This document shows positions 3,609 to 29,356 of a stretch of DNA of 46,554 nt, one piece after another; the stretch's first letter is position 1; each line of letters opens with the position of its first letter. The notes below the pieces were generated by a model. That model saw only the letters and a program-made list of their open reading frames with translations. It had not been told where the DNA came from and did no database searches. The position numbers were made by a program, and so were the translations under genes. This stretch comes from a virus: IMG/VR virus record IMGVR_UViG_3300009370_000050, positions 1 to 46,554 of that record; one strand, 5' to 3'.

Positions 3609-3831
3609 GATAGATGACCTAAAGAAATCACTAAGTGAAATGAGTGATGATGAATTAATGGAAGCACTAAAAGAAGTAAGAAGTAAACGAAGAACACCTG
3701 CCAGAAGTAAAGCTAAGAAAAAGAAAAGTCAGACTATTAATGTTAAGGGATTAACAAAAGGAATGAGTGCTGACGACATACAACAACTACTATTAGACTT
3801 GGGAGGTGATAATGAAACTAAAACAGATTGA
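3601..3831 (+). CDS. Small basic hypothetical protein, 76 aa
   Basis: Start ATG 3601 sits after AAAAAGGAGGAGAAAAAAG, a strong ribosome binding site; upstream in-frame codons have none. Residues 1-27 (IDDLKKSLSEMSDDELMEAL) are an amphipathic acidic helix. A very basic stretch follows (RSKRRTPARSKAKKKKSQ), then a second helical part with ADDIQQLLLDLGG. The basic middle suggests nucleic-acid binding, but I do not recognise the family. It overlaps the ParB-methyltransferase gene by 20 nt, so the two are likely translated together. Confidence 0.75.
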   Translation: MAKIDDLKKSLSEMSDDELMEALKEVRSKRRTPARSKAKKKKSQTINVKGLTKGMSADDIQQLLLDLGGDNETKTD

Positions 3832-5179
3832 TACCAATGACTTATTGGTGGAGGATAGAGCTCGTGAACAGTATGGTAACATAGATGAACTTGTTACTTC
3901 AATTAAACAGGAAGGATTGATACAACCACTAGCAGTAGTGGAAGTAACTTGGAGTCCTGATGAAGGGTTAGAACCTGCACACCACTATAAGTTATTAGCA
4001 GGTGGTAGAAGATATGAAGCTTGTGTTCAAGCAGGCTTTAAGAAACTACCTGTTAGGATATACAACAACAACCTCAGTACATTACAGATTAAATCTATTG
4101 AGTTAGCAGAGAACATATATCGTAAAGACTTTGAGTGGGATGAAGAAGTTAAACTGAAGAAAGAGATACACGAACTTCAGACAGAGATATATGGAGAGAA
4201 AGTAACTACGAAACAAGGAACACCTGAAGAGATTGGTTGGTCTAAAAGAGATACAGCTTCATTATTAAATGAAAGTCCTGCAGGTGTGGTACAAGACTTA
4301 CAATTAGCAGATGCAATAGATGCTATACCTGAACTATCCAATGCAAAGAATAAAAGTGAAGCAATGAAACTTGTCAAGAAAGTACAGAAGGATATGATAG
4401 AAGAAGAACTTGCTAAACGATTTAAAGATAAGAAAGCTAACACACCAACAGAGAAACTTGAAAAGAATCTTGTTGATAATTTTATCATTAGAGATTTCTT
4501 TAAAGGAATTGAAGCTGTACCTGATGGGTCTATAGATATAGTTGAACTAGACCCTCCGTATGGTATAGACTTACAAGGTAAGAAAAAGAAAGAAGGTTCT
4601 GTTGAAACAATCACTCGTGATTATAATGAGGTAGATGCTAAAGAATATGTAGAGTTTATGGATAAAGTATTTAAAGCTTGTTATAAAAAGATGGCTACTA
4701 ATAGTTGGATGTTATGTTGGTTTGGTCCTCATCCTTGGTTTGATACAATGCACTCACTTATTGAGGGAGCAGGATTTCAATGTCGTATGATACCTGCAAT
4801 ATGGTATAAAGGTACTGGGCAAACTATGAATCCTCATATGTATTTAGCTAACGATTATGAGATGATGTTCTATGCACGGAAAGGTAACCCTGTTATATCA
4901 AAGCAAGGTAGTGGTAATACATTCTCATATAAGCCTGTGACTGCAGGTAAGAAGACACACCCTACTGAAAGACCAATCGAGATGATACAAGATGTACTCG
5001 CTACATTTGGTTGGACAGGTGCAAGAGTCCTTGTTCCTTTCTTAGGTAGTGGTAACACATTACTATCTGCTAGTAATTTAGGTATGGATTGTTTTGGATT
5101 TGAGTTATCTAAACAATACAAGGACAGCTTCATTGTGAAGGTATCCGAACAGGAATATGGGAAGTACTCAAGCATATAA
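3812..5179 (+). CDS. ParB-like domain fused to a DNA methyltransferase
   Basis: The 455-aa protein has two parts. Residues 1-110 form a ParB/Srx-type N-terminal domain: IKQEGLIQPLAVVE, then GGRRYEA at 64-70 and VRIYNNN, IELAENIYRKDF. A helical region with a possible HTH follows (WSKRDTASLLNESPAGVVQDLQ, about 143-165). Residues about 220-440 form a methyltransferase with DPPY at 247-250, WFGPHPWF, THPTERPIEMI and the SAM-binding motif PFLGSGN at 409-415. DPPY before FxGxG is the beta-class order of N6-adenine/N4-cytosine enzymes. No restriction enzyme is adjacent, so it is a solitary methyltransferase, perhaps for protection against host restriction or for marking DNA. Start is ATG 3812 with GGGAGG 5 nt upstream; the GTG at 3806 is inside that site. 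Confidence 0.88.
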   Translation: MKLKQIDTNDLLVEDRAREQYGNIDELVTSIKQEGLIQPLAVVEVTWSPDEGLEPAHHYKLLAGGRRYEACVQAGFKKLPVRIYNNNLSTLQIKSIELAENIYRKDFEWDEEVKLKKEIHELQTEIYGEKVTTKQGTPEEIGWSKRDTASLLNESPAGVVQDLQLADAIDAIPELSNAKNKSEAMKLVKKVQKDMIEEELAKRFKDKKANTPTEKLEKNLVDNFIIRDFFKGIEAVPDGSIDIVELDPPYGIDLQGKKKKEGSVETITRDYNEVDAKEYVEFMDKVFKACYKKMATNSWMLCWFGPHPWFDTMHSLIEGAGFQCRMIPAIWYKGTGQTMNPHMYLANDYEMMFYARKGNPVISKQGSGNTFSYKPVTAGKKTHPTERPIEMIQDVLATFGWTGARVLVPFLGSGNTLLSASNLGMDCFGFELSKQYKDSFIVKVSEQEYGKYSSI

Positions 5180-8915: not shown

Positions 8916-11900
8916 CTAATCGATTGGAAGTAGTCTATACTTTTGTCTATTCTTTTTACCTTCAGGCATATTCTGTTTAACTCCATCAAAGTTTATATTA
9001 AGAGTCTGTTGTGATTTAACATACCTATCTAGACCAGGAAACATTAAGTGAGTTTGTTTATCGTATACATCTACAACTATTGGATTAGATAGTATACTAT
9101 TATAAGGGTCTGCATTATAAATTAGTTCACTTACATCTTCTAATTTACCACTCCATTCGTGTAGTAATTTTCTTACCTCGTGCATAGGAAATGGAACATC
9201 ATTACCTGCCTTCTTTTGTTCTATATACAATTCCTTTATATCATTTATACTTGTTTCTAATTCAGCCACTGTCCTATTTATTCTAGCAGCATCTTTAACA
9301 TCAACAATATCAGTCATATATTTAAATGTTAGAACATCTGCCATACTAAGTAGTAAGTCTAATGTCTCAGGGAACTCTTTATGGAAAGCCTCTCTAGCAT
9401 ACTCATCTCTAATCTTAGAAGTTGCATCTGCATATCCCATATCAGTACCTTCAGTAATAGTCATACACTCTTTTATTATGTGTTGCATACCTGCAAATAT
9501 TTTAGTATCTAAAGCATTACCATCTAAGAATATAGGATTACCTCCTGAGTCTCTACCATCAAGTGCTTCCATTACAGCCCTATGAAGTGGGTGGAACTCA
9601 TACTTAAATGCTCTGAATAAAGTACCTGGGTCTGCATCTGGTTGGTAAGCTTTATCAAACCTTTCATAGAACCTTTGTAATAAATTAAAAGGATGTGATA
9701 CAGTAACATTTAACTCTTGAGGTTCTCCTAAAGCATTCTCAACTTCCTTCTTCCATCTCCTCCCATACATATCTTCTTCCCAACCTAGCCCTTTCATTAT
9801 CATTTGAAAAGCAGATGTAACTGCTAACACAGTTATTGCAGAGTATCCATATCTAGATTTAATCTTTGTCTGCCTACCTCCCACATCTTTACCACTAATT
9901 ATATTGAATATATCTACAGGTACGAATGCAGTTCCCTCTAACATCTTACCATATAATTTAAACATAGCAATCTTAAATGTTGGTGTATATAAAAACTTAT
10001 TTAATATCCTACGAGTTTCAGCTGGAACACCAGCATAGTCTCCGTGAAAGTTAGCAGCTGTTTGTGCAGCTTCTTGTGGTGTATATCCTTGAGCCCTTAA
10101 GTACCTGTAAGTTATCTGTCTTACCATACCATCTAAAGTCCAAGCAGTATTAAAAGCAACTTGATACACAGAGCCTAACAATTCAAATCCAATCTTAGCA
10201 CTATAACCTTCTGTGTTGACTAATTGTTTTAGAGGCTTAAGTAGTATACCTAAGAATTTACTATTCAGATAAGTATTCATATTCTGCATATACTCAAACC
10301 ATTCCTTTTCAGACTGATATGGATTACCAAAAGGTGTGGACCTTAATCCAAATCGCTCAGCCAATATCCATTCATCACTTGTCTGATAGAAATCTTTTAG
10401 ACCATCATAAAAAGCTCTCGGTATTGACTTATTACCTTTAATCCAATTCAAAGGATTTAAAGCATTAACAGCTACAGCTCCTTGAATAGCATCATACATA
10501 GGTAGGAATAAAGGATTAAAGAATGTCATCAGTTTCATACTAGCTAAGAAGGTATCTACCTTAGTCATCATCTCACCTTGATTATATACACCTGTAAAAG
10601 ATGTAAGGAATTGATTTAACATAGGACTTAAATGCCAACCTTGAAATACTTTCATATGACTATTGGTTACAGGTATCATAGTAGGGTTCATTGTCTGCGC
10701 TAGTTCAAAGTCATCAGGAGATATAGCCATACCTTCCTTCTGAGCTGCTCTAATAATTTCACCCATAGCAATATCGTGAGCAAACCTTCTAGAATAATTA
10801 AACATTATACCTGCTAATGTTAGATTGTTTACATCAATGAAGCCATCATTAATCAAATCAGATATGTATATAGTATCCCTTCTGTCTTTCATATATTGTC
10901 TAAACTTTTTAACTTGAGCACCTTGAAAATTACTTGACTCAGTTATATTTTCTAAAAGGAATAGTACAGGAAGGTGTACATAATTTAAGTTCTCGCTTAC
11001 CTCTTTAAGTAAGTCATCAAAATATTTAAGTTCTTTCTTAAGTTCTTCTACTTTAGTATTCTCGCCTACGACACCATCCTTCTCTATCAACTCAATGTCT
11101 TCTGTTATCCTAACAATAGTTGTTGCAATTTTTGTCTTTAAGTTTTCAACAAAACCATTTTTAAGTATACCAAATCTTTGTAACTGTTTTAAACTTGATG
11201 TCCAATAGTTCTCCCAAATCCTATAAGCTTCTTCCCATCTATCTTGTTCATCTTTATTGTACTTATTTATATGGTTAAAGAACTCTTTTGGTTTCTCAAA
11301 TAGTAATATAAATTGTCTTACCTTATCCATATCATTACCAAGTAGTTTAGATATCTGAGCAGTTACTTTCATTGCAATCTCAGTTTCAGTATTAATTCTT
11401 GAGAAGAAATTTTTAATATGGAAACCTGTTTCAGTTGCTCCCTCTAATTTAAAAGGACTTTCAACATCAAACTTACTAAAGAAAGAGTTGGTCATATACC
11501 TTACATTATGTTTAAAAGTATCATACCACCCTCGCCACTCTTGTGTATCTTCTTCTATTGTAGTATGTCCTAATAGATTTTTAAATGCTTCTCTCATTTC
11601 AGGTGTTAGTCCTACATCAAGTTTAGTACCTCTTATATTTTTATATAAGTCCTTAAGTGTATCTGCTAGTTGATGAAAGATTTCTTTCTGTCTAGGGGAA
11701 TGACTCTTAACATCACCACCACTTCTTAACCATCTGATAATACCTCTACCAAGTTTATCCATATCTTTCTTTTTCCAATTACCATCTTTAACACCTGCCC
11801 ATTCTTCTAATATATTAAGTTCGCCTTTAGTTAATGACTTTGTAAATATAGGTACAAGGCTAGATACGAAATCTTCAAAGGTACCATTCTTCATTACCTT

Positions 11901-14180
11901 TAATATAGCAGCTCCATCTTTTGTGAAGTTAGGCACACCTCTCTTCTTCTCTTTAACTGATTGTATAAAGTTTGCAATGACTTCATCTGCTGTAACTTTG
12001 TTACCTGTTTGGGATAATTTAAATGCAGTTGAATTAGCCCAAAGTTCTAGTAACTGAACTGCCATATCTAATTCTTCAGTAGACATCTTATTATTTATAG
12101 CTCTTATTCTTTGTTTAATCATATTAGTATCATATATAACATTACCATCTGCAATCTGTTTATCCAACCACTGCTCTACAAACTTTGAATTACCTGTAGC
12201 TTTAATTATATCATCTACAAATTGTGTAGTAGGTATACCCTTCTGTTTATAGTCTCTCCATAGTTGGTCTAATGTTTCTAATATATCAGTAGTTATTTCT
12301 AATTCTGTACTATCTATTTTCTTCCCATCATTCTTAGCTTTATCTATTAACCTTTGTTTTATATCATTCACAAACTTTACAAATGCTTTACCTGTAGTCT
12401 CTCCAATCTTAAATGCTCTATCTTCTCCTTTAACATTTCGATAGTCAGCCCAAGGGATACCACTCTCCCAAGAGTATCTTCCTTCATTATTACCTGATAG
12501 TATCTTAAACATCTCTGAGAATTGTTCTTGACCATACTTTTTAAAGTCTCTATTGTGCATCATCTCGTGAGTTATTGTGTTTATTATTCTCTCTAATTTT
12601 TGAGGGTCTCTATTTTCATCAGTCATCTTAATGTTAACATCTCCAGGATTCATCTGACTGAAGTAACCAAATGTACCATCTCCACTAACATTAAAATCTC
12701 CGTCACTCCAGTTGTTTGTAAAGTTAGCATTGTTTAATGTCATAAAATAATTAGGTGCTTTTCTTTTTATAAAAGACATAGCAACAAGAGCCTTCTCAAT
12801 ATCTGCCTTAGACATATTAGGATTAAAGTTAATCCTTACCTTTGTACCAGCTTCATTGTTAGGGTCATTAGGATTTATGAACTCAAAGTACCCTTGCTTT
12901 TTAATATCATCTATAGTTGTTTCGCCTAATGTATCTCCAAGTAATTCATCTTTACTTATATCCATAGCTTCATTTTGGTCAAAGAGTTCTGGGTTTGTAG
13001 CCCAAGGTTGTAGTGCTTTCCATTCATTGTATTTATCTATAAGATGTTGTGTACCTCCCAAGAAGTTTTCAGATATCCATATCTCTTCAGGAGAAGCAAT
13101 GTTCATTATCCTTCTTGATAGTTCTCCTATAGTTATATTCTCTTGTTGTGCTATATCAAGTAAGTCACTATGTTGATTAAGTCTTACAGTAGTTGATATA
13201 GGTCCTAACATACCACCAGAAAGGAAACCATAACCATAGGACTGTAATACATTCTCAAATAAGTGAGAGAACCTTCTATCATATAAAGCTACATCTATAA
13301 TATTATGTAAACCTTGTTCAAACATTTCTTCAGTACCTTCAATGTTAGCAGTAGTAAACATATCCTTACCAACTATCTTCAGTATCTGAGTAAATTTATT
13401 TTTGTTACCTAATAAATAAGCCTCACCTAAATCCATTATAAGACTTTGATGCTTAGCCATATTACCTTCCCAACCTTTAAGAGCATACCTTTCAGCGAAT
13501 AGTGTTACTAAAGCATAACCAGTACCAGCACTTGCTTTCTGTATATCATTAAAGCCTTCGAAGTTAGGGTCTTGTTCAAACATTAATTTTTCATACTCAT
13601 TAATTCTAGTAACACCTTGACCAAAAGATACTGTAGACATATAACCTAAGTAAGTATTACTTAACCAAGATGCAGCTGTTGATTTTCCAGCACCTCTTAA
13701 TAGAGTACCTGTAACAGATGTACCAACTGTAGGAGCTAAGTTAACTGTAAATGAACCTAGCGAAGACCACCCTGAAGCAGGGTCATACGGATAAGCATTA
13801 TACCAATCTTGACTATCTTGTATATATTCATCGTGAGTATATGTACCATCCTCATCAAAGAGATTAAGAGGTACACCAGTAACTTCAGATATAAATCCTG
13901 GAAATCTTGCCCCACTATTCCACATACTAACTCCAGTATTAATACCAGAGTTTATTAGGTCCTGCTTCCAGTCATAATCCTTCTCACTTAAAAATAATCC
14001 AAAGTCATCCATAGCCTGCCCTTGTGATTGTGCATAATTAATAGGATTATAATTTGTACTTGTTAGGTCAGGTCTTTCATCTTCCTCTTCAAGATTCTCA
14101 AGTGCATAATCTTTATTTTGATTAGGCTCATTAATATCAAGAGGGTCATCTAGTTCTAAAAGTTTATATTTTTCGCTCAT
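8916..14180 (-). CDS. Giant ejection/internal virion protein with HExxH metalloprotease motif, 1754 aa
   Basis: The last and largest gene of the late block. The N-terminal about 60 residues are acidic and disordered. Residues about 100-330 contain small hydrophobic helices (TGTLLRGAGKS, GYGFLSGGMLGP). H538-E539-M-M-H542 inside INTITHEMMHNRDF is a zincin motif. The middle is long helical coiled-coil sequence (YFDDLLKEVSEN). The part at about 1200-1450 has hydrophobic segments and FLYTPTFKIAMFKLYGKM, a pattern I associate with large polyvalent/ejection proteins of aquatic phages. Position after the nozzle and other ejection genes suggests it is packed in the capsid and injected. Its ATG overlaps the stop of the 407-aa ORF (ATGA). 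The protease role is inferred from the motif only; a third zinc ligand was not identified. Confidence 0.85.
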   Translation of the reverse strand: MSEKYKLLELDDPLDINEPNQNKDYALENLEEEDERPDLTSTNYNPINYAQSQGQAMDDFGLFLSEKDYDWKQDLINSGINTGVSMWNSGARFPGFISEVTGVPLNLFDEDGTYTHDEYIQDSQDWYNAYPYDPASGWSSLGSFTVNLAPTVGTSVTGTLLRGAGKSTAASWLSNTYLGYMSTVSFGQGVTRINEYEKLMFEQDPNFEGFNDIQKASAGTGYALVTLFAERYALKGWEGNMAKHQSLIMDLGEAYLLGNKNKFTQILKIVGKDMFTTANIEGTEEMFEQGLHNIIDVALYDRRFSHLFENVLQSYGYGFLSGGMLGPISTTVRLNQHSDLLDIAQQENITIGELSRRIMNIASPEEIWISENFLGGTQHLIDKYNEWKALQPWATNPELFDQNEAMDISKDELLGDTLGETTIDDIKKQGYFEFINPNDPNNEAGTKVRINFNPNMSKADIEKALVAMSFIKRKAPNYFMTLNNANFTNNWSDGDFNVSGDGTFGYFSQMNPGDVNIKMTDENRDPQKLERIINTITHEMMHNRDFKKYGQEQFSEMFKILSGNNEGRYSWESGIPWADYRNVKGEDRAFKIGETTGKAFVKFVNDIKQRLIDKAKNDGKKIDSTELEITTDILETLDQLWRDYKQKGIPTTQFVDDIIKATGNSKFVEQWLDKQIADGNVIYDTNMIKQRIRAINNKMSTEELDMAVQLLELWANSTAFKLSQTGNKVTADEVIANFIQSVKEKKRGVPNFTKDGAAILKVMKNGTFEDFVSSLVPIFTKSLTKGELNILEEWAGVKDGNWKKKDMDKLGRGIIRWLRSGGDVKSHSPRQKEIFHQLADTLKDLYKNIRGTKLDVGLTPEMREAFKNLLGHTTIEEDTQEWRGWYDTFKHNVRYMTNSFFSKFDVESPFKLEGATETGFHIKNFFSRINTETEIAMKVTAQISKLLGNDMDKVRQFILLFEKPKEFFNHINKYNKDEQDRWEEAYRIWENYWTSSLKQLQRFGILKNGFVENLKTKIATTIVRITEDIELIEKDGVVGENTKVEELKKELKYFDDLLKEVSENLNYVHLPVLFLLENITESSNFQGAQVKKFRQYMKDRRDTIYISDLINDGFIDVNNLTLAGIMFNYSRRFAHDIAMGEIIRAAQKEGMAISPDDFELAQTMNPTMIPVTNSHMKVFQGWHLSPMLNQFLTSFTGVYNQGEMMTKVDTFLASMKLMTFFNPLFLPMYDAIQGAVAVNALNPLNWIKGNKSIPRAFYDGLKDFYQTSDEWILAERFGLRSTPFGNPYQSEKEWFEYMQNMNTYLNSKFLGILLKPLKQLVNTEGYSAKIGFELLGSVYQVAFNTAWTLDGMVRQITYRYLRAQGYTPQEAAQTAANFHGDYAGVPAETRRILNKFLYTPTFKIAMFKLYGKMLEGTAFVPVDIFNIISGKDVGGRQTKIKSRYGYSAITVLAVTSAFQMIMKGLGWEEDMYGRRWKKEVENALGEPQELNVTVSHPFNLLQRFYERFDKAYQPDADPGTLFRAFKYEFHPLHRAVMEALDGRDSGGNPIFLDGNALDTKIFAGMQHIIKECMTITEGTDMGYADATSKIRDEYAREAFHKEFPETLDLLLSMADVLTFKYMTDIVDVKDAARINRTVAELETSINDIKELYIEQKKAGNDVPFPMHEVRKLLHEWSGKLEDVSELIYNADPYNSILSNPIVVDVYDKQTHLMFPGLDRYVKSQQTLNINFDGVKQNMPEGKKNRQKYRLLPID

Positions 14181-15400
14181 TTGTTACTCCTTAATAAATA
14201 AATATCTCCAGCTTCATCGTTTACTAATTCATAAGATACAGGTTTAGATAAATAATTTTCGTATCCCATTTGTTCTATATCAGAAAAATATGTAAGTGTA
14301 AAGTCTCTATTGTCTGCATACTCAACATTTATACCTGCATCTTTTAATAAATTAGGATGACTTAACAATAACATATCCATATACTGAGGGTTATCTATAG
14401 CATACATCATAGCATAGTAATTTTTAAATGCAGGATGTCCGTGTTTTTGATATGTCTTTTCTCCAATATCAAGAAGTCCATTTAAGAAATATACTACACC
14501 TTTACCATTAGCTTTCTTGCTTCCCTCATTAGTAGCATCGTGGATATATGAAGGTGCTGTATAAACCATCTTACCATTAACAAATTCATATTGAGGCTCT
14601 CCTAATATAGTCCACTCTATATACTTATCTTTAGATATATTCTTTAACTCGTGATGTAAGCTTTGATTCATTACCTTCTGCCTCCAATAACCTAACTCAG
14701 TATGACCCCAAGGAAAACTACTAGATTGAAAAGCCCAATTAATAGCAGGACTTAATTTATTAGTATGCCCTTTTATATACTCCCAAAACTGTTCTATAGT
14801 AGGTACATAATTATAATCCCACATCTTGTCTTGTTCGAATTCATACTCACTAGATTTAAACTCATCAGGTGTATCAACAATAGCAAGTCTAGGGTCAGTA
14901 GTAGGATTCATAATCTCATTAGAACTTAAATTAGATGTTCTAAATGGAGTAGGTTCAATATTAAAATCAGTAACTAGTATAGGATTATTAAAGAAATCTT
15001 TTCTTTCTTCTGTACCAAATGGAGTATCCGCTCCACTAAGTAAATAGAAAAAACTATGATGAGGTTGTATATCAAAGTTCTGTACTTTCACTTTATTAAC
15101 AGGGTCATCTGTAGCATCATCTGCTGAAAGTATATACGAAGGTTTATTCTCAACAACTTCTTCTTCTTCCTCAACTACTACCTCTGGTGTAATAACAGGC
15201 TCAATAGGTAGTGTACTATTTAATTGTTCTATGTTAGGCTCAGGTAATCCTTCTGTTTCTCCGTGAGCCCAGTACTGTTCAGGGTTATCCATATTAGCCT
15301 CTATATATTCTTTAATATGAGAATTGTCTGCCCAGTCTACAATAAATTTAGCAGGGTCATTATTGTCATAGTTCCAACTTAATCCAAATGGTAACTTCAT
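14177..15400 (-). CDS. Ejection-type virion protein, 407-aa ORF, probably made as a -1 frameshift fusion
   Basis: Open frame from ATG 15400 to 14177. The ATG has only a weak, distant GGAGA before it (about 16 nt). The same frame stays open upstream for 84 more codons, back to the frameshift heptamer at the end of the 549-aa ORF, with no ATG, GTG or TTG in that stretch. The simplest reading is that this ORF is the C-terminal part of a 549+84+407 = 1040-aa fusion. The sequence has an acidic spacer (about 66-90, rich in V and E) and a folded C-terminal half (FWEYIKG, YLNGLLDIGEK-like FLNGLLDIGEKTYQ, YAMMYAIDNPQYMD). No known domain is recognised. It lies between two ejection proteins and is therefore likely a virion component. 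Confidence 0.75.
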   Translation of the reverse strand: MKLPFGLSWNYDNNDPAKFIVDWADNSHIKEYIEANMDNPEQYWAHGETEGLPEPNIEQLNSTLPIEPVITPEVVVEEEEEVVENKPSYILSADDATDDPVNKVKVQNFDIQPHHSFFYLLSGADTPFGTEERKDFFNNPILVTDFNIEPTPFRTSNLSSNEIMNPTTDPRLAIVDTPDEFKSSEYEFEQDKMWDYNYVPTIEQFWEYIKGHTNKLSPAINWAFQSSSFPWGHTELGYWRQKVMNQSLHHELKNISKDKYIEWTILGEPQYEFVNGKMVYTAPSYIHDATNEGSKKANGKGVVYFLNGLLDIGEKTYQKHGHPAFKNYYAMMYAIDNPQYMDMLLLSHPNLLKDAGINVEYADNRDFTLTYFSDIEQMGYENYLSKPVSYELVNDEAGDIYLLRSNK

Positions 15401-15652
15401 ATTTCTAAATATCGCTTCTCCAACAGTACCTGAATAGTTTATAGTATCTATATCAACACCCTCTGCAGTTAATTGGAACTGACCATTACTATATGTAGTT
15501 AATGTAGGAGTAGAATTATTATTATTATTTTTAAGGTCAGGTACTTCCTCTATATTAGTTAATAGATTATCTTCCTCTGAGTTAAATATTATATCATCTT
15601 CTCCATTTAAGTCAACCTCACTAGACTCGGAGTTATTCTGTGAGGTATTTAC
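15401..15652 (-). other. Open -1 frame extension joining the 549-aa and 407-aa ORFs
   Basis: Reading the minus strand in the frame of the 407-aa ORF, all 84 codons between the heptamer and ATG 15400 are sense. The peptide is acidic and Asn/Ser-rich at first (residues such as SSEVDLNGEDD, a run of five Asn), then more ordered (NGQFQLTAEGVDIDTINYSG). Its composition matches the flanking ORFs. The frame is closed upstream by a TAA at 15662-15664, so entry needs a frameshift or a sequence error. Confidence 0.7.
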
Positions 15653-15658
15653 TTTCCC
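15615..15658 (-). promoter_or_regulatory. Programmed -1 ribosomal frameshift cassette
   Basis: On the minus strand, the heptamer G GGA AAG (15658-15652) fits X XXY YYZ in the frame of the 549-aa ORF and directly abuts its TAA stop (15651-15649). After a 5-nt spacer, ACCTCAC (15646-15640) pairs perfectly with GTGAGGT (15621-15615) around an 18-nt loop that can form an inner ACT/AGT pairing. GGGAAAG is also the slippery site of phage lambda G-GT. Slip into -1 keeps Gly-Lys and then reads GTA AAT ACC onward. Confidence 0.75.
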
Positions 15659-17298
15659 AATTTACGATACTCATTTAAGTCTTTAATAGGTACACCATTT
15701 ATTGTAGTACCAACTCCTTCAGTAGTCTCAGGGTCAGCATACCTTGCTATTATCTCTCCGTTCTCATAAGACCTTATCTCCATAATCTCACCTAACATAT
15801 TAGTAATGTATATGTCTCCTTGATGAGGACTATCTCCTAGCATCTGAGAATTAGAACCTTTAAACATATGATAGATTCCTTCTTGGTCTTTAACTGGTTT
15901 CCATACTATAGCATTTTTATCGTGTTCAAAGACATCCATACTATATAGCGCTGATTCAGTATCTATAGTAGCACCTTGTCTTGAATAGGCTGGATTATTC
16001 TTTAACTGATTAATATTTGGAAACAATAGAGCATTCCTTAAGAATTGAGCATAAGCAGGTTGAGCTGCAGTCCAATCTATATCTCCCAGATAGTCAGTAA
16101 CAAGTCCTTCAATTCCATATCCTACTAATGACTTATCTATACTATTCTGTATACTTGATACCTGAGATTTAATAGTAGGTATATAATTTTTTGATGACTC
16201 ACTTCCGTGATACACAGTTAACATCTTACCTGTAAACACTCCATTCTCAGTTTCCCATATACCTCTTACTTGTACATCAGACTCAACTGTAGTGCCTGCT
16301 AAAGGATTACCATTACCATCAGTACCATAAAAATTATCAGGATATTTACTACCTGCAGTAAGTGTGTAAGGCATTTGATTCTTACCAACCTGACCATCTC
16401 CTGAACTCTTTGCTATGTTAGTAGGACCTTTACCTACTTCAAATGAGTCATCAGATATACCATACTGTACAGGTTCTTCAGTGTTAACACCTTTCTGAAA
16501 CATAAGTGTACCACCTGAGTGTTCTATTATTTGGTCAATAGGTGAGATATATAAATACTTTCTTACTCCTTGGTCTGTTGTGTAGACATTACCATTCTTA
16601 TCTATTATAGGCTTAAGTCCCATACCTCTATAATAATTAGATACATTATTTATTTTATCTATCTCGGCTCTAACCTTATGATTTTTAAGTACCTCCCCTT
16701 CAAGTTTAACTCTATCTTCTATATTCATTCCTCCATAAGGGTCTATCCTATCTCCTTCAGGACCTACTAAAGGAGTAGGCATATTACCATTACCTTGAAG
16801 AACATTATCCATACTTAGTTGTCCGTTATTATTAACTATAGGATTACTATTACCTCTAACAGGCTCAAGGTCAGTTGTAGTATCAGTAACTACATCTTCA
16901 CTTAAAGCAGTCTGTACATCCTCAGGTTTATAGTTAACACCTCCAGGTAGATTTAAACTATTAGTATAATTTCTATATCCTTTATACTCAGGGTCTCCTA
17001 TATTAGTTTCATAAGGCACTGAAAAATCCTCAATACCTTCTGTATCATAGTCCTGATTCATTATACCTTGAACATCTATATTAGCATTAGCTACAGTCAT
17101 ATCTTGATAAGGGTCGTTTCTAAAATTAGCAGTTCTGTTTCCTGAAAGATTAGCAACATTACCTGCATTTCTTCTTTGAATTAAATCCAGAACATTAAAT
17201 TCATTATCATCATTCATATCCCTACTCCTACCTGGTATCTTTGTAGGGTCATCATCTGGATTATATTTCGTAGTTCTTAAGTCTATCTTCTGTGTCAT
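15649..17298 (-). CDS. Ejection-type virion protein, 549 aa (upstream frameshift partner)
   Basis: An acidic, Asn/Gly-rich protein. The first about 190 residues look disordered (PGRSRDMNDDNEF, LPGGVNYKPEDVQ). A more structured part begins near residue 200 (EDRVKLEGEVLKNHKVRAEIDK) and continues with beta-rich segments (YLYISPIDQIIEHSGGTLMFQ, GKMLTVYHGSE). The C-terminus GQIYIT-like DIYITNMLGEIMEIRSYENGEI ends at EYRKLGK, where the frameshift heptamer lies. No known domain is recognised. Its ATG overlaps the stop of the 750-aa gene by one base. The position between the nozzle region and the giant protein suggests an internal or ejected virion protein. It would be made both alone and as the N-terminal part of a 1040-aa fusion. 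Confidence 0.8.
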   Translation of the reverse strand: MTQKIDLRTTKYNPDDDPTKIPGRSRDMNDDNEFNVLDLIQRRNAGNVANLSGNRTANFRNDPYQDMTVANANIDVQGIMNQDYDTEGIEDFSVPYETNIGDPEYKGYRNYTNSLNLPGGVNYKPEDVQTALSEDVVTDTTTDLEPVRGNSNPIVNNNGQLSMDNVLQGNGNMPTPLVGPEGDRIDPYGGMNIEDRVKLEGEVLKNHKVRAEIDKINNVSNYYRGMGLKPIIDKNGNVYTTDQGVRKYLYISPIDQIIEHSGGTLMFQKGVNTEEPVQYGISDDSFEVGKGPTNIAKSSGDGQVGKNQMPYTLTAGSKYPDNFYGTDGNGNPLAGTTVESDVQVRGIWETENGVFTGKMLTVYHGSESSKNYIPTIKSQVSSIQNSIDKSLVGYGIEGLVTDYLGDIDWTAAQPAYAQFLRNALLFPNINQLKNNPAYSRQGATIDTESALYSMDVFEHDKNAIVWKPVKDQEGIYHMFKGSNSQMLGDSPHQGDIYITNMLGEIMEIRSYENGEIIARYADPETTEGVGTTINGVPIKDLNEYRKLGK

Positions 17299-19550
17299 TA
17301 CTCGCTCCCTCCTGTTAGCTTACTAACCAGTATATCATATTCAGCTTTATTTAATACATTCTGGTCTAATAATAAATTAAGTTCTTCTAAGTTACTACCT
17401 GCATATGTGGTTAAGTTTACATCTCTTGGAGGTGCATTCTGGTCAGGACTTAAATTGTTCTTTACATTAGCATTTGTATCATTAACTAATTTAGTCCCAC
17501 TCCTTTGCTTACCTCGTTCCACTGCGAAGTCAGCAGCTTTACCTTGCCAGCTACTACCTTGTTCTTTACCTGTTTGGTCCTCATAGAAACTAGAAAAGAT
17601 TTTAGCAATGTTACCAAAGTATGCTTGACCTTCAGGAGTCTTCTGATATTCCTTAGCCCATTCCCATTTATCTTTTAACCATTTACCTACTTTAGTCTTA
17701 GGTTCTTTTGTAGGAGTACCACCATCTGATAAAGCATCTACAACATCTTTTGTTTCTTCTACAACCAGTTTTGAATCTGAAGTATCATCATTAAGGTCAG
17801 TTGATATTGCTGAAGTTATTTCATTTGTTTCAGGATTATCAGTTACCTCAGCTAAGTCAGTATTAATAGATTCAACTTCTTCATCATCAATAACAGCCCC
17901 TCCATCTCCATCTCCCTCTGTAACAAGTTCAGGTCCATCACTATCAGAAGTAATCTCTAAATTACCTGCATCTGAGTCAGAGGTAATAGGCTCATTCTTA
18001 TCAGAAGTAATAGAACCTTTCTCTACCCATTGACCATCTACATATTCCATCTCAGTACCTGGGTCGTCTTTCATATAATCAACTATACCTTCTGCTTTCC
18101 TATCTTGTATATATTGTTTCTGTTGCTCAGGAGTAAGTTGCTCAAACTGTGCTTGGTCTATCTCTTGTTGGTCTTGAGGTGTATCTAATATCTCTTGCAT
18201 TGTATCGTGTACAACCTTACCATCCTCTAAAGATTCATACTTACCTAAATCAGTTCCTTTATTCCAATCATCAAGTTGTTGAGTAACATCCTCATCAGGC
18301 CTACCAAACCTCTTATGCATTATCTCCCCATTAGGTCCTGTATATAATCTCTTTCGATTAAAACCTTTAGGTAACTCAAGATTACTTCTTTGCATTTGTC
18401 CTGGAGTAAACTCAGGTACATCTGCTAGGTCCACATTAATAGGATTATTTTCTAAGTATTGTTCTTGTATACTTTTAATAGGCTTAGGTTGAAACTTTCC
18501 ATCTACATATTCATAATTATCTCCAAAGCTATGAGCTTGTCCGTCAACTGTATTAGTATTAAGTTGAGGGTCGAACTGAACTCCAAATGGATTATCCTTA
18601 GTTTTATTCTGATTGTTAATAATATTCTCATAACTAAAGTTAGGATTGTTAGATAAAGATATACCAGAACTATAATCATTACCACTTGTTATATCATTAA
18701 ATGTTTTAGCTTGGTCTAACCTCTCTTGAAATGTAAGATTAGGTTGGCCTGTCATAAAATTAAATCCTGGGTTATTTTCAGTAGGTACATCCCCTCCACT
18801 ACTTGTTGTAGTATCTATAGTGAATGGTTCTGATACACCTTCAACTGTTGCACTCTCACTTGTTATAGGTGGTGGTGGTTCTGTTGTAGCTCCATATGTT
18901 TGACCATACTTTGCATTCTGCATAGCTACATAATTCTCATAGCCAGGCATTCCAGGTATGACAGAATAATGCTCCTCCTGAGGTTGGTTATAATCAACAC
19001 CATCTACACCAAACATATCCTCATCACTTACAGGATTACCAAAGTCATCTAATACAGTTCCATCTTCTGTACTTGAGAACCCTGAATCATCAACACTTTC
19101 TCCATAAGAATTTCCAGGATTATTATTAATTAAATTAGATACAGGCTCTCCATTAACCACTTCTAAATTATTAACATCCTCAGCATTTAAAGGGTTACTA
19201 TTATCGTGTACTATTTCTGCATCTGTAATAGGTGGTAACCCTTCTGTATTCCCATATGTAGGGTCCTCAGAGTATCCATCTGGAGATATAACTTCAGGAC
19301 TACCATCCCATAAAGTCTGTCCTTGTATATCATCAGGGAATGTAGATGTTCCACTACCACTTAATGCTTGTGCAGGGTTAAGTTCTACATTTTCTGGAAT
19401 CTCTGTTAATGCTACATCTGTAGAATCAGCAGGTGCTCCTCCTTCACTAAAAGTAGATAGACTACTTATAGCATTTTGCAAATCTTCATCCTTCTTTTTG
19501 TTCATCTGATTCAGATGCTCATAAGGATTGTTAGAAGGTTGGTATGTCAT
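17298..19550 (-). CDS. Large acidic disordered virion protein, 750 aa
   Basis: Dominated by low-complexity acidic sequence rich in D, E, N, S, T, P and G (EGGAPADSTDVALTEIPEN, VEEVNGEP-like segments). A cluster of ITSD repeats occurs at about residues 510-540. The folded part seems limited to the last about 130 residues (KVGKWLKDKWEWAKEYQKTP, YFGNIAKIFSSFYEDQ), which are helical. The C-terminal region GSNLEELNLLLDQNVLNKAEYD is another helix. No enzyme motif is visible. The ribosome binding site AAAGGAG is formed by the right flank of palindromic element copy 3. It probably belongs to the ejected or internal protein set with its two downstream neighbours; the precise role is unknown. Confidence 0.8.
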   Translation of the reverse strand: MTYQPSNNPYEHLNQMNKKKDEDLQNAISSLSTFSEGGAPADSTDVALTEIPENVELNPAQALSGSGTSTFPDDIQGQTLWDGSPEVISPDGYSEDPTYGNTEGLPPITDAEIVHDNSNPLNAEDVNNLEVVNGEPVSNLINNNPGNSYGESVDDSGFSSTEDGTVLDDFGNPVSDEDMFGVDGVDYNQPQEEHYSVIPGMPGYENYVAMQNAKYGQTYGATTEPPPPITSESATVEGVSEPFTIDTTTSSGGDVPTENNPGFNFMTGQPNLTFQERLDQAKTFNDITSGNDYSSGISLSNNPNFSYENIINNQNKTKDNPFGVQFDPQLNTNTVDGQAHSFGDNYEYVDGKFQPKPIKSIQEQYLENNPINVDLADVPEFTPGQMQRSNLELPKGFNRKRLYTGPNGEIMHKRFGRPDEDVTQQLDDWNKGTDLGKYESLEDGKVVHDTMQEILDTPQDQQEIDQAQFEQLTPEQQKQYIQDRKAEGIVDYMKDDPGTEMEYVDGQWVEKGSITSDKNEPITSDSDAGNLEITSDSDGPELVTEGDGDGGAVIDDEEVESINTDLAEVTDNPETNEITSAISTDLNDDTSDSKLVVEETKDVVDALSDGGTPTKEPKTKVGKWLKDKWEWAKEYQKTPEGQAYFGNIAKIFSSFYEDQTGKEQGSSWQGKAADFAVERGKQRSGTKLVNDTNANVKNNLSPDQNAPPRDVNLTTYAGSNLEELNLLLDQNVLNKAEYDILVSKLTGGSE

Positions 19551-19585: not shown

Positions 19586-20542
19586 TTATCCGAATAATCC
19601 AAGTAGACCTCCAATCCCTGCACCTATAGGACCACCCATAGCAAACCCTGAAGCTGCTCCTGACAAAGCACCAGCTATAGGATTTTTAGAAGGTTCATTA
19701 GGTACATACTGTCCACCACTCATAGCTGCTAAACCAGTCGCTGTTTTCTGTAATACATCAAGTTCCCAATTAGCGTCCTTGATATTCAAATCAGTCGAAG
19801 CTGCTTCATAATCTGTGAGTGCAGTTATTCTAGTTTTCTTAATTTCAGATGCAGTTGTTATTACAGTCGCTCCTAACTGTAGTTGCATTTGAAGTACTGT
19901 CATCATCATCTGAGATGCAGTGGCTATGAAGTTTAACCTACCCTCATAGTACTTGGTTTTCATTTGTTTCTTAAAATTACTTATATCTTTTAATCTTGTT
20001 ATTTCTAGATTAGCCATACCTTGTACAAATGCAGATGAGTACACTGCATTAATATCAGACATACCTGCTGAGAATGCTACGATACCAGTTGCATATTGGT
20101 CTTCTGTTTTATCCTCATACACATCTACCTCATCATCAATATAAGATGCACTATGAATAGTACCATCAAATGTCTGTGCAGCTTGTGTTGTAAAGTTAGC
20201 CCAATCAGTAACTGGATTAACATTTTGCCAAGCTGTTGTTAGTAAACCAGATAATGTATCCATACCTTGTAAATCTGTATTAGGATTATATGCTATCGCT
20301 GTAGTATAAGGATTAGCATTAAGTGAAGCAGGGTATATATTTTTATAATCATAAGGTGATGTAGGGTCACTACCTAATAAACCTTCGTGCCAGTCCTCTT
20401 GATATTGAGGATATTTAACCTCACCACTACTTCCTCCACCTCCTCCTTTACATTCTGATATAGGTCCACTATATTCATATGAATCTTCTGATATAATATT
20501 ACCAGTATTCATATCTATAGTAACCTCATTATATATCTTCAT
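19586..20542 (-). CDS. Ejection/internal virion protein with Gly-rich hydrophobic C-terminus, 318 aa
   Basis: The N-terminus MKIYNEVTIDMNTGNIISEDS followed by a Gly/Ser linker (CKGGGGGSSG) is a pattern I associate with podoviral ejection proteins. The middle (about 140-265) is long helix (NAVYSSAFVQGMANLEITRLKD, ATASQMMMTVLQMQLQLGA). The last about 35 residues are a glycine-zipper-like hydrophobic stretch (AGALSGAASGFAMGGPIG, GGLLGLFG) able to insert in membrane. The likely role is part of the trans-envelope DNA injection channel. The gene overlaps the GNAT-like gene by 14 nt and has the site GGAGAATATAAAA. Sure of the gene; the function is by pattern and position. Confidence 0.8.
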   Translation of the reverse strand: MKIYNEVTIDMNTGNIISEDSYEYSGPISECKGGGGGSSGEVKYPQYQEDWHEGLLGSDPTSPYDYKNIYPASLNANPYTTAIAYNPNTDLQGMDTLSGLLTTAWQNVNPVTDWANFTTQAAQTFDGTIHSASYIDDEVDVYEDKTEDQYATGIVAFSAGMSDINAVYSSAFVQGMANLEITRLKDISNFKKQMKTKYYEGRLNFIATASQMMMTVLQMQLQLGATVITTASEIKKTRITALTDYEAASTDLNIKDANWELDVLQKTATGLAAMSGGQYVPNEPSKNPIAGALSGAASGFAMGGPIGAGIGGLLGLFG

Positions 20543-24461: not shown

Positions 24462-25739
24462 TTAGGATGGGTTATCCAATCCAATACCTTTTAATATTCC
24501 GAAACATTCTGGATGATGAACTTCAAGTCCACATTCAGTTAGATACTCTTCTTTCAAACCATCAATACCAGCTTGTGTTACATCACTAAATTTAGTGTCT
24601 GTAATGTATCTGTATTTAAGTTTATCAGGTTCTAATACAATCATTTGATTTCTAGTACCTGACTCATAACTTAATAATGGATGAGTCTTAAGAGTAACTG
24701 TTCCAAATGGTGTTATCCATTCAACAACTTTAATACCATAAGCTTCGCTTGTAGGTTTAAGTTGGATATTACCAGTTGCTTTAGCTATCTTTTGAATACC
24801 TAATAAAGCACCACTTCCACACAAGGCTAACTTTTCAGATGAGCCGTGTCTGAAGATTTGCTCAAGAGTTGAATCTAAGAAAGCCTCACCACTAGCAGTC
24901 CAATCATCTCCTGAAGCACCACCGTGAGCAACTATATCAGTATCATTAACAAAGTCTAATACATTACCACTCGCATTAGCATTAATGAAATTGATTAAGC
25001 CATCTGTAGTTCTTTCAGGTAGACCATTAGAACCTGTGTTCTCTGATTTAACTCCCCAAAGAAATGCTTTTTCCATTTCGATAGAGTGTAATTCAAGAGC
25101 CTCTCTTTTTAACTCTTTATAAGCATCACCAGTTCTTAACCTAGTTGCTTTCGCAGTACGAGATATTTCCAATGGAGTTCTAAAAATTTGTGTAAAATTT
25201 GTGAACTTAGTTGGGTCGTATGTGATAGCTTCAGGTGAACCAGCACCCTCAGAATTAACTGTACCAATCACTTGACAATAATTAGCAGTTTGCACTAAAC
25301 CATTATTCGCTTCAAGCAATTTGATAGCTGCATAAGATGAAGCACCAGCTACTGATATACCAGTTACTTTACCTACTGTATCTTGTGCTTGGTTAGTAGT
25401 TAATCTTAATAGTACAGTTTGACCTGCTCTAAAATTAGCTACCTCAGTTGCTGTCATCTTTTTATACAGAGTTGTACCTGCAATATCAGAACCTGTAGGG
25501 TTACCACTTAATCCTGAAGATGTGTACAAACCTGCTGTAGTTGCAGTCTGTGTTGGAAGTGTTTTTGTCCACCAATTATACTCTGGGTCATCAGTAGACT
25601 CTTCACTTATTTTACTTAATACCGCTGTTAATGGAGCAGAACCATTAGGATATAAATATAAAATCATCTCCCTCCAATTCTTAGGTCGCTGGTCGGTAAC
25701 CCAACTTCCTGTTCCCCTCATTCCAAGAAATCCAGCCAT
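24462..25739 (-). CDS. Major capsid protein (DUF5309/SU10-like), 425 aa
   Basis: The N-terminus MAGFLGMRGTGSWVTDQRP followed by REMILYLYPNGSAPLTAVLSKI and DPEYNWWTKTLP is the pattern of DUF5309 major capsid proteins with the HK97 fold. Later parts fit as well: FTQIFRTPLEISRTAKATRL, a long spine-type helix region AYKELKREALELHSIEMEKAFLWG, and the C-terminal EEYLTECGLEVHHPECFGILKGI. It follows scaffold and decoration genes and precedes the adaptor, the usual order. The ribosome binding site is AGAAGGAGG. It is likely the most expressed late gene; a 9-bp hairpin follows it. Confidence 0.88.
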   Translation of the reverse strand: MAGFLGMRGTGSWVTDQRPKNWREMILYLYPNGSAPLTAVLSKISEESTDDPEYNWWTKTLPTQTATTAGLYTSSGLSGNPTGSDIAGTTLYKKMTATEVANFRAGQTVLLRLTTNQAQDTVGKVTGISVAGASSYAAIKLLEANNGLVQTANYCQVIGTVNSEGAGSPEAITYDPTKFTNFTQIFRTPLEISRTAKATRLRTGDAYKELKREALELHSIEMEKAFLWGVKSENTGSNGLPERTTDGLINFINANASGNVLDFVNDTDIVAHGGASGDDWTASGEAFLDSTLEQIFRHGSSEKLALCGSGALLGIQKIAKATGNIQLKPTSEAYGIKVVEWITPFGTVTLKTHPLLSYESGTRNQMIVLEPDKLKYRYITDTKFSDVTQAGIDGLKEEYLTECGLEVHHPECFGILKGIGLDNPS

Positions 25740-26188: not shown

Positions 26189-27127
26189 TTACATTAAGTC
26201 CTTCAACTCTTTCTCAAGGTCTGTGATAGGTTTCTGAGTGTTGTCTCGTGTAGCGCTTTTCTTAGTCTTAGCAAAAGCTGGCTTTGTTTTAGCCGTGCCT
26301 TTACCTGAAGGGTTTGTAGCCTTATTAAGACTTAATCGCTTACGAGTTTCTTTTTCAACATTATCAAATAACTCATCAAGTCCCCAAGTAGGGTTTTTGG
26401 ATGACAACTCATTCGCAACGAAACCAATAAACTTCCTATAAGGTACTAAGTCATTATGCTTCTTATAGAAGTCATCAACCTTAGCATTCAAAGTTGTTTG
26501 TTGGTTTATTAACTTTTGAACCATCCTAGGTACATTAACGATTGTATTCTCAACTGCAGTATTATACACTTGACTTAACACACCATTAAACTTTGCAGGG
26601 TCTTTCATAACTTCAGCATAATTCTCTTTAGTTATAAATTTCCTTACACCACTAGGATTCTGTGGAACTTCTGGTGGTGGTTTAACATTACCTTTAGGCT
26701 CTTGTTCTTTAGGAGTCTGTGAAAATGTTTTAGGTTTAGGAGTACTAGTTGCTTGATGAGACATACTTTCAATAGTTTTATCTCTAGCAGCTAATTGTGC
26801 TCTTAAATTTTCCAACTCACCTTGAGGTTCTTCATCTTTTTCAACCTGTTCTTTAGTCTCTTTTTGTTCCTGAACTTTGTTGTCCTTATCCTCTTTTGAA
26901 GATGATTCTCGTACTGGCTCTTCATCCTCTTGGGCAGGTTCTTCAACAGGTTCTGGTTTTTCTTTTACTTCTTCTTTAACATCCTCTTCCTTAGGACTTT
27001 CATCCTCTTTCTTTTCTGAAGTTTCTTCTTTAGGTTCTTCAGGCTCAGGAGTTTTCCCTTGCATATCATCAAACATTTCATCAAGCCCCTCCTGATTGTG
27101 TTCTTCATTTGTTTTTTCATCTATCAT
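26189..27127 (-). CDS. Scaffolding protein, 312 aa
   Basis: Acidic, P/E/K-rich first third (KTPEPEEPKEETSEKKED), a short coiled coil (ELENLRAQLAARDKTIESM, about 104-122), a Pro-rich linker, then a helical region (YAEVMKDPAKFNGVLSQVYN, IVNVPRMVQKLINQQTTLNAK) and a basic C-terminus (KTKPAFAKTKKSATR). This highly helical, charged layout directly upstream of the decoration and capsid genes and downstream of the portal is typical of podoviral scaffolds. The basic C-terminal end is where scaffolds commonly bind the coat. The start overlaps the preceding gene by 4 nt (ATGA). Confidence 0.75.
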   Translation of the reverse strand: MIDEKTNEEHNQEGLDEMFDDMQGKTPEPEEPKEETSEKKEDESPKEEDVKEEVKEKPEPVEEPAQEDEEPVRESSSKEDKDNKVQEQKETKEQVEKDEEPQGELENLRAQLAARDKTIESMSHQATSTPKPKTFSQTPKEQEPKGNVKPPPEVPQNPSGVRKFITKENYAEVMKDPAKFNGVLSQVYNTAVENTIVNVPRMVQKLINQQTTLNAKVDDFYKKHNDLVPYRKFIGFVANELSSKNPTWGLDELFDNVEKETRKRLSLNKATNPSGKGTAKTKPAFAKTKKSATRDNTQKPITDLEKELKDLM

Positions 27128-27348
27128 TTTAACTCTCCTTTACTATCTTTATCATTGATTATATTGTCAGGCAGTTCTATTAGAAATCTAACTTGGTCAG
27201 CAGAACCTTGTAGGTTACGAATAACCATCTCATCTTTCTCCATTTCCAAAGCATCTCTAATTTGACTCAACCTCTCTTTCAAAGTTCTTTCAATCTCAGT
27301 CCAATGTTCAGACTTTCTAAATTTATCCCAACTTATTGATGTTGCCAT
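27124..27348 (-). CDS. Small hypothetical protein between portal and scaffold, 74 aa
   Basis: The true start is ATG 27348 (MATSISWDKFRKSEHW), with AAGGAGGACAAG right before it; the longer upstream frame is only the shadow of the portal C-terminus. It overlaps the portal by 26 nt and the scaffold by 4 nt. The product is helical and charged (TEIERTLKERLSQIRDALEMEKDEM). It resembles the small proteins often found between portal and scaffold genes in podoviruses, of unknown role. Confidence 0.75.
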   Translation of the reverse strand: MATSISWDKFRKSEHWTEIERTLKERLSQIRDALEMEKDEMVIRNLQGSADQVRFLIELPDNIINDKDSKGELK

Positions 27349-29356
27349 CTTGTCCTCCTTGTGCAGGTTGTGGTTTAGCAGGTGGTCCTTCAGGTTGTTC
27401 AGGTTGTTGAGGTTGTCCTCCCATTTGTGCTTCAGCCATTGCTTGTTGGTCAGGAGCCATCTGTTGTGGTTGAGGAGCATCATTCATCCTCTTACCAAAC
27501 TCTTCAATACCCTTAGCACCCATCTGATATGCTATATGTTTAAATATCTTAACCATATCAAATTGTTGAGCGACCTCTTGATTTTGTGCTAGTATCTGAT
27601 ATAACTGTACCCACAAGTCTGTAGGCTCACCACCTGGCATTGCTCCGTCATAAGGCACTACATCAAAATCTATAAGTATATCTAATGGAGATACTCTTGC
27701 TTCATTACCTTCATCTCCATAAACTTTCTTAAGGTCCTCTTCCCATCTTCCCATTATCTCAACATAAGTATCTTCTTCCATTAATTGTTGTGTATGAGAA
27801 GCAAACATATATCCAATATCTTGTATACATTGCATACTAATTACTTGAGCCATTTTATCTAATCTAGATACAGCACCAGCCCTAGCTGCACTTGTCTCAG
27901 CAGCTGACTTTGCTTCACCTTTATTATATGTCATACCTTGTAATGAGTCTGAAGCACCTGACACACGATTTATAAGATCTGATAAAAATTGACTATCTTG
28001 TATATTACCTTTAGTTATATCATTAACTGCAAGTTGTTTAACTGAACCTTCAACTCCACGACCCCAAGCACTTCGTCTTGTTCTAATTAACTTACCTGGC
28101 TCAGGACTTTGTAAGTCGTTTATATTAATCATTGAAGGGTCTACAATTAACATATCATTTAAACTCTTTCTAACATTAGCCATATGACTTGAGAATAACC
28201 AATCCATTGTTTCTTGTAAAGGATACACTACTTCTAATCTTGAATTTGGTTGAGTACTATATCCATCAAAATCAGGAGAGGCGACACACACAGGATACAT
28301 CTCGTGATTGAGACCTAGGGGCTTAGCAGAAATAATAACTTCATCTCCTGCCAAGATGAATAACCATTTCTCAGGATATTCTCCATCACCTAAGCCCCAA
28401 TCTGTAGGAACTAAATTAACATACAAATACACTAAATCAACTGGGGATGATGTAGTAGCAGGATTAGTGTCGTACTTGGATTGTGCGGTATTATCGAGGT
28501 CGTATATTAGTGTACTTTTAGCATCCATATTTTTAAGATATTTAACATTAAAAAGTTCTCCGTGTTCATCGCCTTCTTCCTCTAATAAAGAATAATAATT
28601 ATTTCTATCTACCCAACCAACCCACTCTCCTTCTTGTACTTTATGTATAGGTACATTAGGGTCTGGTAGATACATATAAGGGTCTATGTTCTCTAAACCA
28701 TTTCCTTCATAAACTAATTTTCTTGTTGTAGTCTTTTCAAATCCTGTAGATTCATAATTACCTGTCATCCTTGCAAAGAAACCTGTCTTTGATTTGGTAG
28801 CTTTATAACCATACCTTGCTATCCAAGTAGGGTGTACAATACCTACACCATATACTAATGAATCTCTAAATAATGTATGCATAGCTAAACCAACCTTAGA
28901 TTTAGTACATTGATTTTCAACTAACTTCTCTAATAATATAGCACCTAATCTATCTTCAGGTCCAACTGCTTTATATTTGAATATAGGCATTTGTAAAAAA
29001 GCTTTAGTTAAATATGTTAATAATGTTTCTAATGTAGAATACAATACAGGAACTGTTATTGGTGTATCAGCATCTATTCTATTCTGACCATCTAATGTAG
29101 CATCACTATTGTGTGCAATTAAAGCTTTATCAATTCTTTCCCACTTCTTATATTTAACCTGCATTTTATCTCTACTATCTCTAGCTCTCCTTAAAATCTT
29201 TCGAACAAGTTTATCGTGTTCCTTTGTTCCTGGTTTAAAATTCTTCCCAAGAAATTCAGGGTAGTCATATTTATGGTCTACATCACTCCAATTTTTATTG
29301 GTAGCTGTAGAACCTTGAGCTTCCTGATTACTACTTGGGTCTAAAATATTCGGCAT
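27323..29356 (-). CDS. Portal protein, 677 aa
   Basis: A long portal of podovirus type. The N-terminal helical region contains DKLVRKILRRARDSRDKMQVKYKKWERID. The clip/wing part has GLENIDPYMYLPDPNVPIHKVQEGEWVGW. The stem region is VVYPLQETMDWLFSSHMANVRKSLNDMLI, and crown helices follow (ETSAARAGAVSRLDKMAQVISMQ). The C-terminal about 55 residues are Gln/Pro-rich and disordered (QMAPDQQAMAEAQMGG, PQQPEQPEGPPAKPQPAQGG). The portal ring is the DNA entry and exit vertex. It sits downstream of the terminase and a fibre-like gene, and upstream of the scaffold. Start at 29356 with AAGGAGAT upstream. Confidence 0.85.
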   Translation of the reverse strand: MPNILDPSSNQEAQGSTATNKNWSDVDHKYDYPEFLGKNFKPGTKEHDKLVRKILRRARDSRDKMQVKYKKWERIDKALIAHNSDATLDGQNRIDADTPITVPVLYSTLETLLTYLTKAFLQMPIFKYKAVGPEDRLGAILLEKLVENQCTKSKVGLAMHTLFRDSLVYGVGIVHPTWIARYGYKATKSKTGFFARMTGNYESTGFEKTTTRKLVYEGNGLENIDPYMYLPDPNVPIHKVQEGEWVGWVDRNNYYSLLEEEGDEHGELFNVKYLKNMDAKSTLIYDLDNTAQSKYDTNPATTSSPVDLVYLYVNLVPTDWGLGDGEYPEKWLFILAGDEVIISAKPLGLNHEMYPVCVASPDFDGYSTQPNSRLEVVYPLQETMDWLFSSHMANVRKSLNDMLIVDPSMININDLQSPEPGKLIRTRRSAWGRGVEGSVKQLAVNDITKGNIQDSQFLSDLINRVSGASDSLQGMTYNKGEAKSAAETSAARAGAVSRLDKMAQVISMQCIQDIGYMFASHTQQLMEEDTYVEIMGRWEEDLKKVYGDEGNEARVSPLDILIDFDVVPYDGAMPGGEPTDLWVQLYQILAQNQEVAQQFDMVKIFKHIAYQMGAKGIEEFGKRMNDAPQPQQMAPDQQAMAEAQMGGQPQQPEQPEGPPAKPQPAQGGQDGNINKLG

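Follow-up and report, generated by a model that had tools for sequence, protein, structure and literature searches.

A large family of podovirus-like phages appears to carry an old −1 frameshift signal, made up of a variable slippery heptamer and a conserved hairpin, in a gene of the ejection module, from which short and long forms of a protein would be produced. On this account, which we consider somewhat probable, selection would keep both forms and not the frame that encodes the longer one (−1 in most lineages, frame 0 elsewhere, even between sisters), and split genes driven by Shine-Dalgarno (SD) sequences would replace the signal elsewhere. The virus of the window, by which we mean the whole stretch of DNA analyzed (46,554 nucleotides, positions 1 to 46,554 of IMG/VR record IMGVR_UViG_3300009370_000050), would have evolved a second, lambda-like cassette in the neighboring gene pair. 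As judged from the sequences compared, the putative family-wide signal is a stronger and more interesting result than the window site itself.

The window cassette and its gene neighborhood

The virus record is 46.5 kb long with 34.7% G+C, and its ends (1-119 and 46436-46554) are identical over 119 bp, so that it is probably a complete genome. Its capsid, terminase and primase are similar to those of Desulfofustis phage LS06-2018-MD01, with a more distant likeness of the capsid and primase to Microcystis phage Mel-JY34, PaP2-like Pseudomonas phages and EBPR podovirus 3. The structural genes lie on the minus strand, beginning with the portal and capsid genes and ending with ORFs of 318, 750, 549, 407 and 1754 aa. 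This order (a 318-aa protein, middle proteins and a giant last protein) is similar to that of T7 genes 14-15-16, and it is from this likeness that we speak of an ejection module. The first-pass annotation had called the 549- and 407-aa ORFs ejection-protein ORFs. The gene order agrees with this and suggests an ejection role, so that their products probably form part of the virion and of the DNA-ejection module, but neither ORF matches a PHROG or Pfam family: a scan against both gave no above-threshold family for any of the five ORFs from 318 aa to 1754 aa. Elsewhere in the window, a single ORF at 3806-5179 combines two parts, one a ParB-like nuclease and the other a DNA methyltransferase, and a 119-aa ORF (27124-27483, with a tentative start), homologous to one in L010, shares 161 nt with the end of the portal ORF (27323-29356) in another frame. 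The features of the region are:

24462-25739, capsid gene, distinct from the cassette genes and uninvolved
19586-20542, minus strand, 318-aa ORF at the gp14 position, with a glycine-rich C-terminus; its family is present in most relatives and serves as a landmark
17298-19550, minus strand, 750-aa ORF, the upstream neighbor
15649-17298, minus strand, 549-aa ORF, the zero-frame short product, with SD sequence AGGAG 10 nt before its ATG
15662-15664, minus strand, TAA, the nearest upstream stop of the −1 frame, limiting the 0/−1 overlap to 10 nt
15652-15658, minus strand, candidate slippery heptamer G_GGA_AAG, in phase with the 549-aa ORF
15649-15651, minus strand, zero-frame stop TAA, directly 3′ of the heptamer
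15615-15646, minus strand, hairpin ACCTCAC / GTGAGGT, 5 nt past the heptamer
15401-15658, minus strand, bridge in the −1 frame, coding-like and without ATG, GTG or TTG
14177-15400, minus strand, 407-aa ORF, the C-terminal part of the predicted 1040-aa fusion
8916-14180, minus strand, 1754-aa giant ORF at the gp16 position, the next downstream gene

The 549-aa ORF (17298-15649, minus strand) ends in ...CGT AAA TTG GGA AAG TAA, and the heptamer that the first-pass annotation described here, in phase and followed by the stop, is found exactly at 15658-15652. The remaining elements are also present as described: a 5-nt spacer (TAAAT, 15651-15647) and a stem whose arms (15646-15640 and 15621-15615) pair perfectly at all 7 positions and enclose a loop of 18 nt. 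Only 10 nt separate the zero-frame stop from the point upstream where the −1 frame closes, which leaves TTG GGA AAG as the one place for a −1 slip. In-phase heptamers of the form XXXYYYZ make up 0.36% of codons in this genome, and in-phase GGGAAAG occurs twice in 11,324 codons, this site included; the chance of finding one in the three possible codon positions is ∼1% for any heptamer and ∼0.05% for GGGAAAG. The window hairpin, taken alone, is weak evidence: an equally good stem arises in 8% of shuffles (P 0.08), with a fold z of about −1. Rfam gave no relevant match, nor did an exact search of viral contigs for part of the hairpin.

Past the heptamer the −1 frame is open and has no start codon for 83 codons up to ATG 15400 (84 in the first-pass annotation); it continues to 14177, and the predicted fusion is 549 + 491 = 1040 aa long. 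The bridge scores 0.346 per codon in the −1 frame, compared to 0.363 ± 0.084 for true genes and −0.98 ± 0.34 for off-frame reading, and the coding-frame preference switches from 0 to −1 at the heptamer. None of 1268 off-frame stretches of 84 codons in large genes is stop-free (0/1268). The ribosome site of the 407-aa ORF had been judged poor, and ATG 15400 does lack an SD, whereas most genes here, including both flanking neighbors, have one 5-12 nt upstream. Direct searches of viral contigs with the 407-, 549- and 1754-aa ORFs gave no relatives, genome contigs gave no relative of the 407-aa ORF (ORF2), and the predicted structure of ORF2 is uninformative (pLDDT 32).

Readings of the window junction

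A real −1 programmed ribosomal frameshift is the best reading of the window site, and we think it likely. It is supported by the phase of the heptamer, the minimal overlap of the frames, the coding statistics and the missing start site, to which the architecture of the relatives (below) can be added. Against it, the site is known from a single contig (a near-identical contig, G002, does not span it), and the heptamer and stem of the cassette are not conserved even in L013, the only close relative that spans the site (primase 93% identical), so that the conservation looked for by the first-pass annotation was not seen in this close relative. The weakness of the hairpin, the lack of detectable homology between the window pair and the signal gene of the relatives, and the place of the window in the 318-aa family tree (below) also count against it. 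In L013, ORF1 ends at the equivalent place and ORF2 is homologous to that of the window, but there is no heptamer, and ORF2 stands in a +1 relation with start codons overlapping the end of ORF1.

That arrangement, in which ATG codons of ORF2 adjoin the ORF1 stop, would suit two separate proteins, the downstream one made by termination-reinitiation at ATG 15400 or from a non-standard codon near the 549-aa stop. Six other loci (L028, L051, L093, L123, L138 and L149) have a split gene with a normal SD and start codon at the stop and no heptamer. The window itself fits this poorly: reinitiation would have to contend with 83 codons lacking ATG, GTG or TTG, with the missing SD at ATG 15400 and with a stretch before that ATG which is coding-like from its first codons, and it would make the in-phase heptamer inside the 10-nt overlap a coincidence. 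We therefore regard two separate proteins as unlikely. Less likely again is an indel introduced into the G3A3 tract (GGGAAAGTAA as read) by assembly or sequencing, with a single 1040-aa ORF as the true gene. One extra base would join the frames, the evidence is a single contig, and the syntenic second genes of L016 and L021 are single ORFs of ∼490 aa, although homology of these to the window pair was not detected. However, ORF1 of L013 also ends at the equivalent place, and since L013 too has two ORFs, the two-ORF layout looks natural, unlike a sequencing slip. In addition, the near-identical contig is 99.9% identical over the overlap, with no sign of frequent errors, and short-read errors do not typically arise at 3+3 tracts. 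It is very improbable that the frames are correct and the downstream part is a decaying remnant, with little or no fusion made; both ORFs are poorly conserved (23-33% aligned identity to L013), but the codon signature of the bridge is normal, and ORF2 is intact and alignable in L013.

Under the preferred reading, that of a −1 frameshift, ribosomes on the 549-aa ORF would meet G_GGA_AAG with a hairpin 5 nt ahead. The majority would stop at the adjoining TAA and release the 549-aa protein, and a minority would move back by one base, pair with GGG AAA and read on through the bridge and the 407-aa ORF to give the 1040-aa protein. The two products would have a common N-terminus and a set ratio. Both the occurrence of slippage at the window site and its rate are what we infer.

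Frameshift-type signals in distant relatives

Approximately 130 further loci were reached via primase, capsid and giant-ORF searches, and terminase relatives were also used. The 318-aa family served as the landmark, and the interval from it to the giant ORF was read in each. Many loci have one gene of roughly 350-500 aa in that interval, and others have two ORFs. In 14 loci (∼13 lineages) the gene is split in −1 phase, and a heptamer lies where the two frames overlap:

L011, L027 (near copy L074), L033, L083 (contig stops inside the second ORF), L089, L090 and L052
L106, L115, L113, L117, L121, L126 and L128

L134 is an additional, truncated case. The heptamers of the relatives are C_CCT_TTY, A_AAC_CCT and A_AAT_TTT, and the frequency of in-phase CCCTTTN in these genomes is 1.2e-4 per codon. 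Heptamer loci mostly have no SD and start codon at the junction, whereas the heptamer-less split genes (the six named above, L025 and L076) mostly do. Three loci (L015, L026 and L086) have neither heptamer nor SD start, but keep the hairpin. The split gene of L086 is in a +1 relation (TTC CCT CTT CAA TAG), with its stop ∼483 nt after the 318-family gene and the same hairpin, and could represent a +1 shift or an assembly indel. At L076, a GGGAAAG at a gene end was rejected as a candidate; the GTG of the next large ORF follows it closely, which suggests ordinary coupling.

In most loci the hairpin begins 4-6 nt past the heptamer, with a stem of 6-16 bp and z values down to −4.4. On the outer pairs, 95% of alignment cells are paired, and the covariation score, counted on stems cut at these pairs, is 0.325, compared to 0.198 ± 0.029 in shuffles (0/500) and 0.04-0.14 in slid controls, the latter being the better guide since shuffles ignore relatedness. 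By the shuffle test, L115, L128, L106, L089 and L090 have a weak hairpin or none, and part of the sequence conservation of the hairpin arms is accounted for by an encoded motif, SPxGL ... LAGL. An alignment of the L126 −1 fusion with the L023 single ORF covers 397 residues (32%), and the fusion can be aligned with L034 and L109 as well, in each case without a break at the junction; such fusions match single-ORF homologues from one end to the other. The −1 split in these relatives should yield one protein in two lengths, as far as can be read from the alignments. The predicted structure of the gene is uninformative (pLDDT 41), and the capsid relatives in genome contigs gave no new case of the signal.

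The signal also occurs inside uninterrupted ORFs, where an in-phase heptamer lies 12-16 codons before the LAGL motif and is followed by a stem. L092 probably belongs here as well. The five genes are:

L034, 15332-16669
L109, 18768-19970
L060, 16106-17395
L048, 16176-17216
L135, 17791-19248

In these single-ORF relatives it is frame 0 that holds the long form, and slipping by −1 would cut the product short. The combination of heptamer and stem has a frequency of 3.3e-4 per codon in the long ORFs of all loci. Early −1 stops in the single-ORF relatives were dropped as evidence, since such stops are common there (product 0.024), and L100, which was first counted as single-ORF and also stands in the 318-aa family tree, was left out of the argument, its gene being tail-fibre-type-like. 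In the 318-aa family tree, the sister pairs L109/L126 and L121/L135 differ in the frame of the long form, and both are on starred branches; the tree is a quick one with many weak forks, so the number of frame switches is uncertain. Relatives that differ in this way offer a natural test of what is selected.

Three observations concern other genes of the relatives. In L122 (7390), L125 (7915) and L127 (11309), no stop interrupts the −1 frame for 123 codons past the end of the capsid gene; this extension was rejected as a candidate, as it lacks a heptamer and contains a strong terminator-like hairpin, and is probably due to chance. In L149 (PP438425.1, Microcystis phage Mel-JY34; 7977-9309), the annotated 349-aa CDS leaves a 282-nt gap, and an in-frame ATG with an SD overlaps the previous stop (TAATG), so that the protein is probably 443 aa long. 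On the minus strand of L017, a −1 shift interrupts the giant ORF, with the stop at 12724 (AGG ACT TTC TGA AAA), which may be an assembly indel or real.

The window cassette and the signal of the relatives occupy the same gene-order interval, from the gene at the gp14 position to the giant ORF. However, profile comparisons of the 549- and 407-aa ORFs with the signal gene of the relatives gave probabilities of 0.3% or less, and with no detectable homology between them, the window cassette may be independent. There is a weak match (E 0.05) between the C-terminus of the 750-aa ORF (622-653) and the N-terminal motif of the relatives' gene. The 318-aa family tree places the window in a group of ten, of which eight are single-ORF relatives without the signal. 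From these comparisons, the window cassette most plausibly arose separately within the same module, or else is a relic diverged beyond recognition. If two-length coding is conserved in the ejection module, the proteins that form the DNA channel or cargo across the cell envelope would be made in two lengths at a set ratio. Gene callers miss such proteins, listing them as two unrelated ORFs.

Comparison with known frameshift systems

Known phage frameshifts are mostly those of tail chaperones and capsid proteins. The window heptamer is that of lambda G/GT, in which a G_GGA_AAG frameshift yields the tail-assembly chaperone (Xu, Hendrix and Duda 2004, as cited in PMC9965538), and G_GGA_AAG is highly shift-prone in E. 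coli (review PMC5009743). Common to both are the heptamer, a −1 shift close to where the first ORF ends, and short and long products (predicted, for the window) with a common N-terminus. Unlike in lambda, the window genes lie among the distal structural genes of a podovirus-like genome, the stop directly follows the heptamer, and the extension is 491 aa. The chaperone products of lambda-type systems, moreover, belong to long-tailed phages and are absent from the virion (PMC5009743). The window is not such a setting: the relatives of its capsid protein and primase include podoviruses (EBPR podovirus 3), and no match to a tape-measure family was found among the structural ORFs scanned. A second comparison is with the major capsid frameshifts of T7 (10A/10B) and of Kuravirus-like podophages, with GGGAAAG in the kuravirus-like phages and two virion products reported (PMC7881722, PMC9965538). 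These are also −1 shifts in short-tailed phages, but in the capsid gene.

The closest precedent found is a −1 fusion in Alteromonas phage vB_AspP-H4/4 (Foturvirus, MF278336), where a putative frameshift joins genes 39/40 into an internal virion protein (PMC5658483). The suggestion in the first-pass annotation that frameshifting among internal virion proteins had not been described was therefore nearly right, with this annotated fusion as the exception. It resembles the window as a podophage −1 fusion in which the stop directly follows the heptamer (...GTA AAA AAG TAG, with A_AAA_AAG). It is unlike the window in that its short product is annotated as an endolysin and its fusion is ∼1,950 aa long (gp16-like by size); it concerns different genes in one phage of the T7 supergroup, and the frameshift is given as putative in PMC5658483. 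Open-licence full-text literature yielded no description of the conserved signal in the gene of the relatives.

The single-ORF relatives bring to mind a different system. In a dnaX-type frameshift, the long form is encoded in frame 0, and slippage leads to a truncated form. L034, L048, L060, L109, L135 and probably L092 share this layout, although their gene is one of a phage structural cluster and, unlike in dnaX, sister phages instead carry the long form in the −1 frame.
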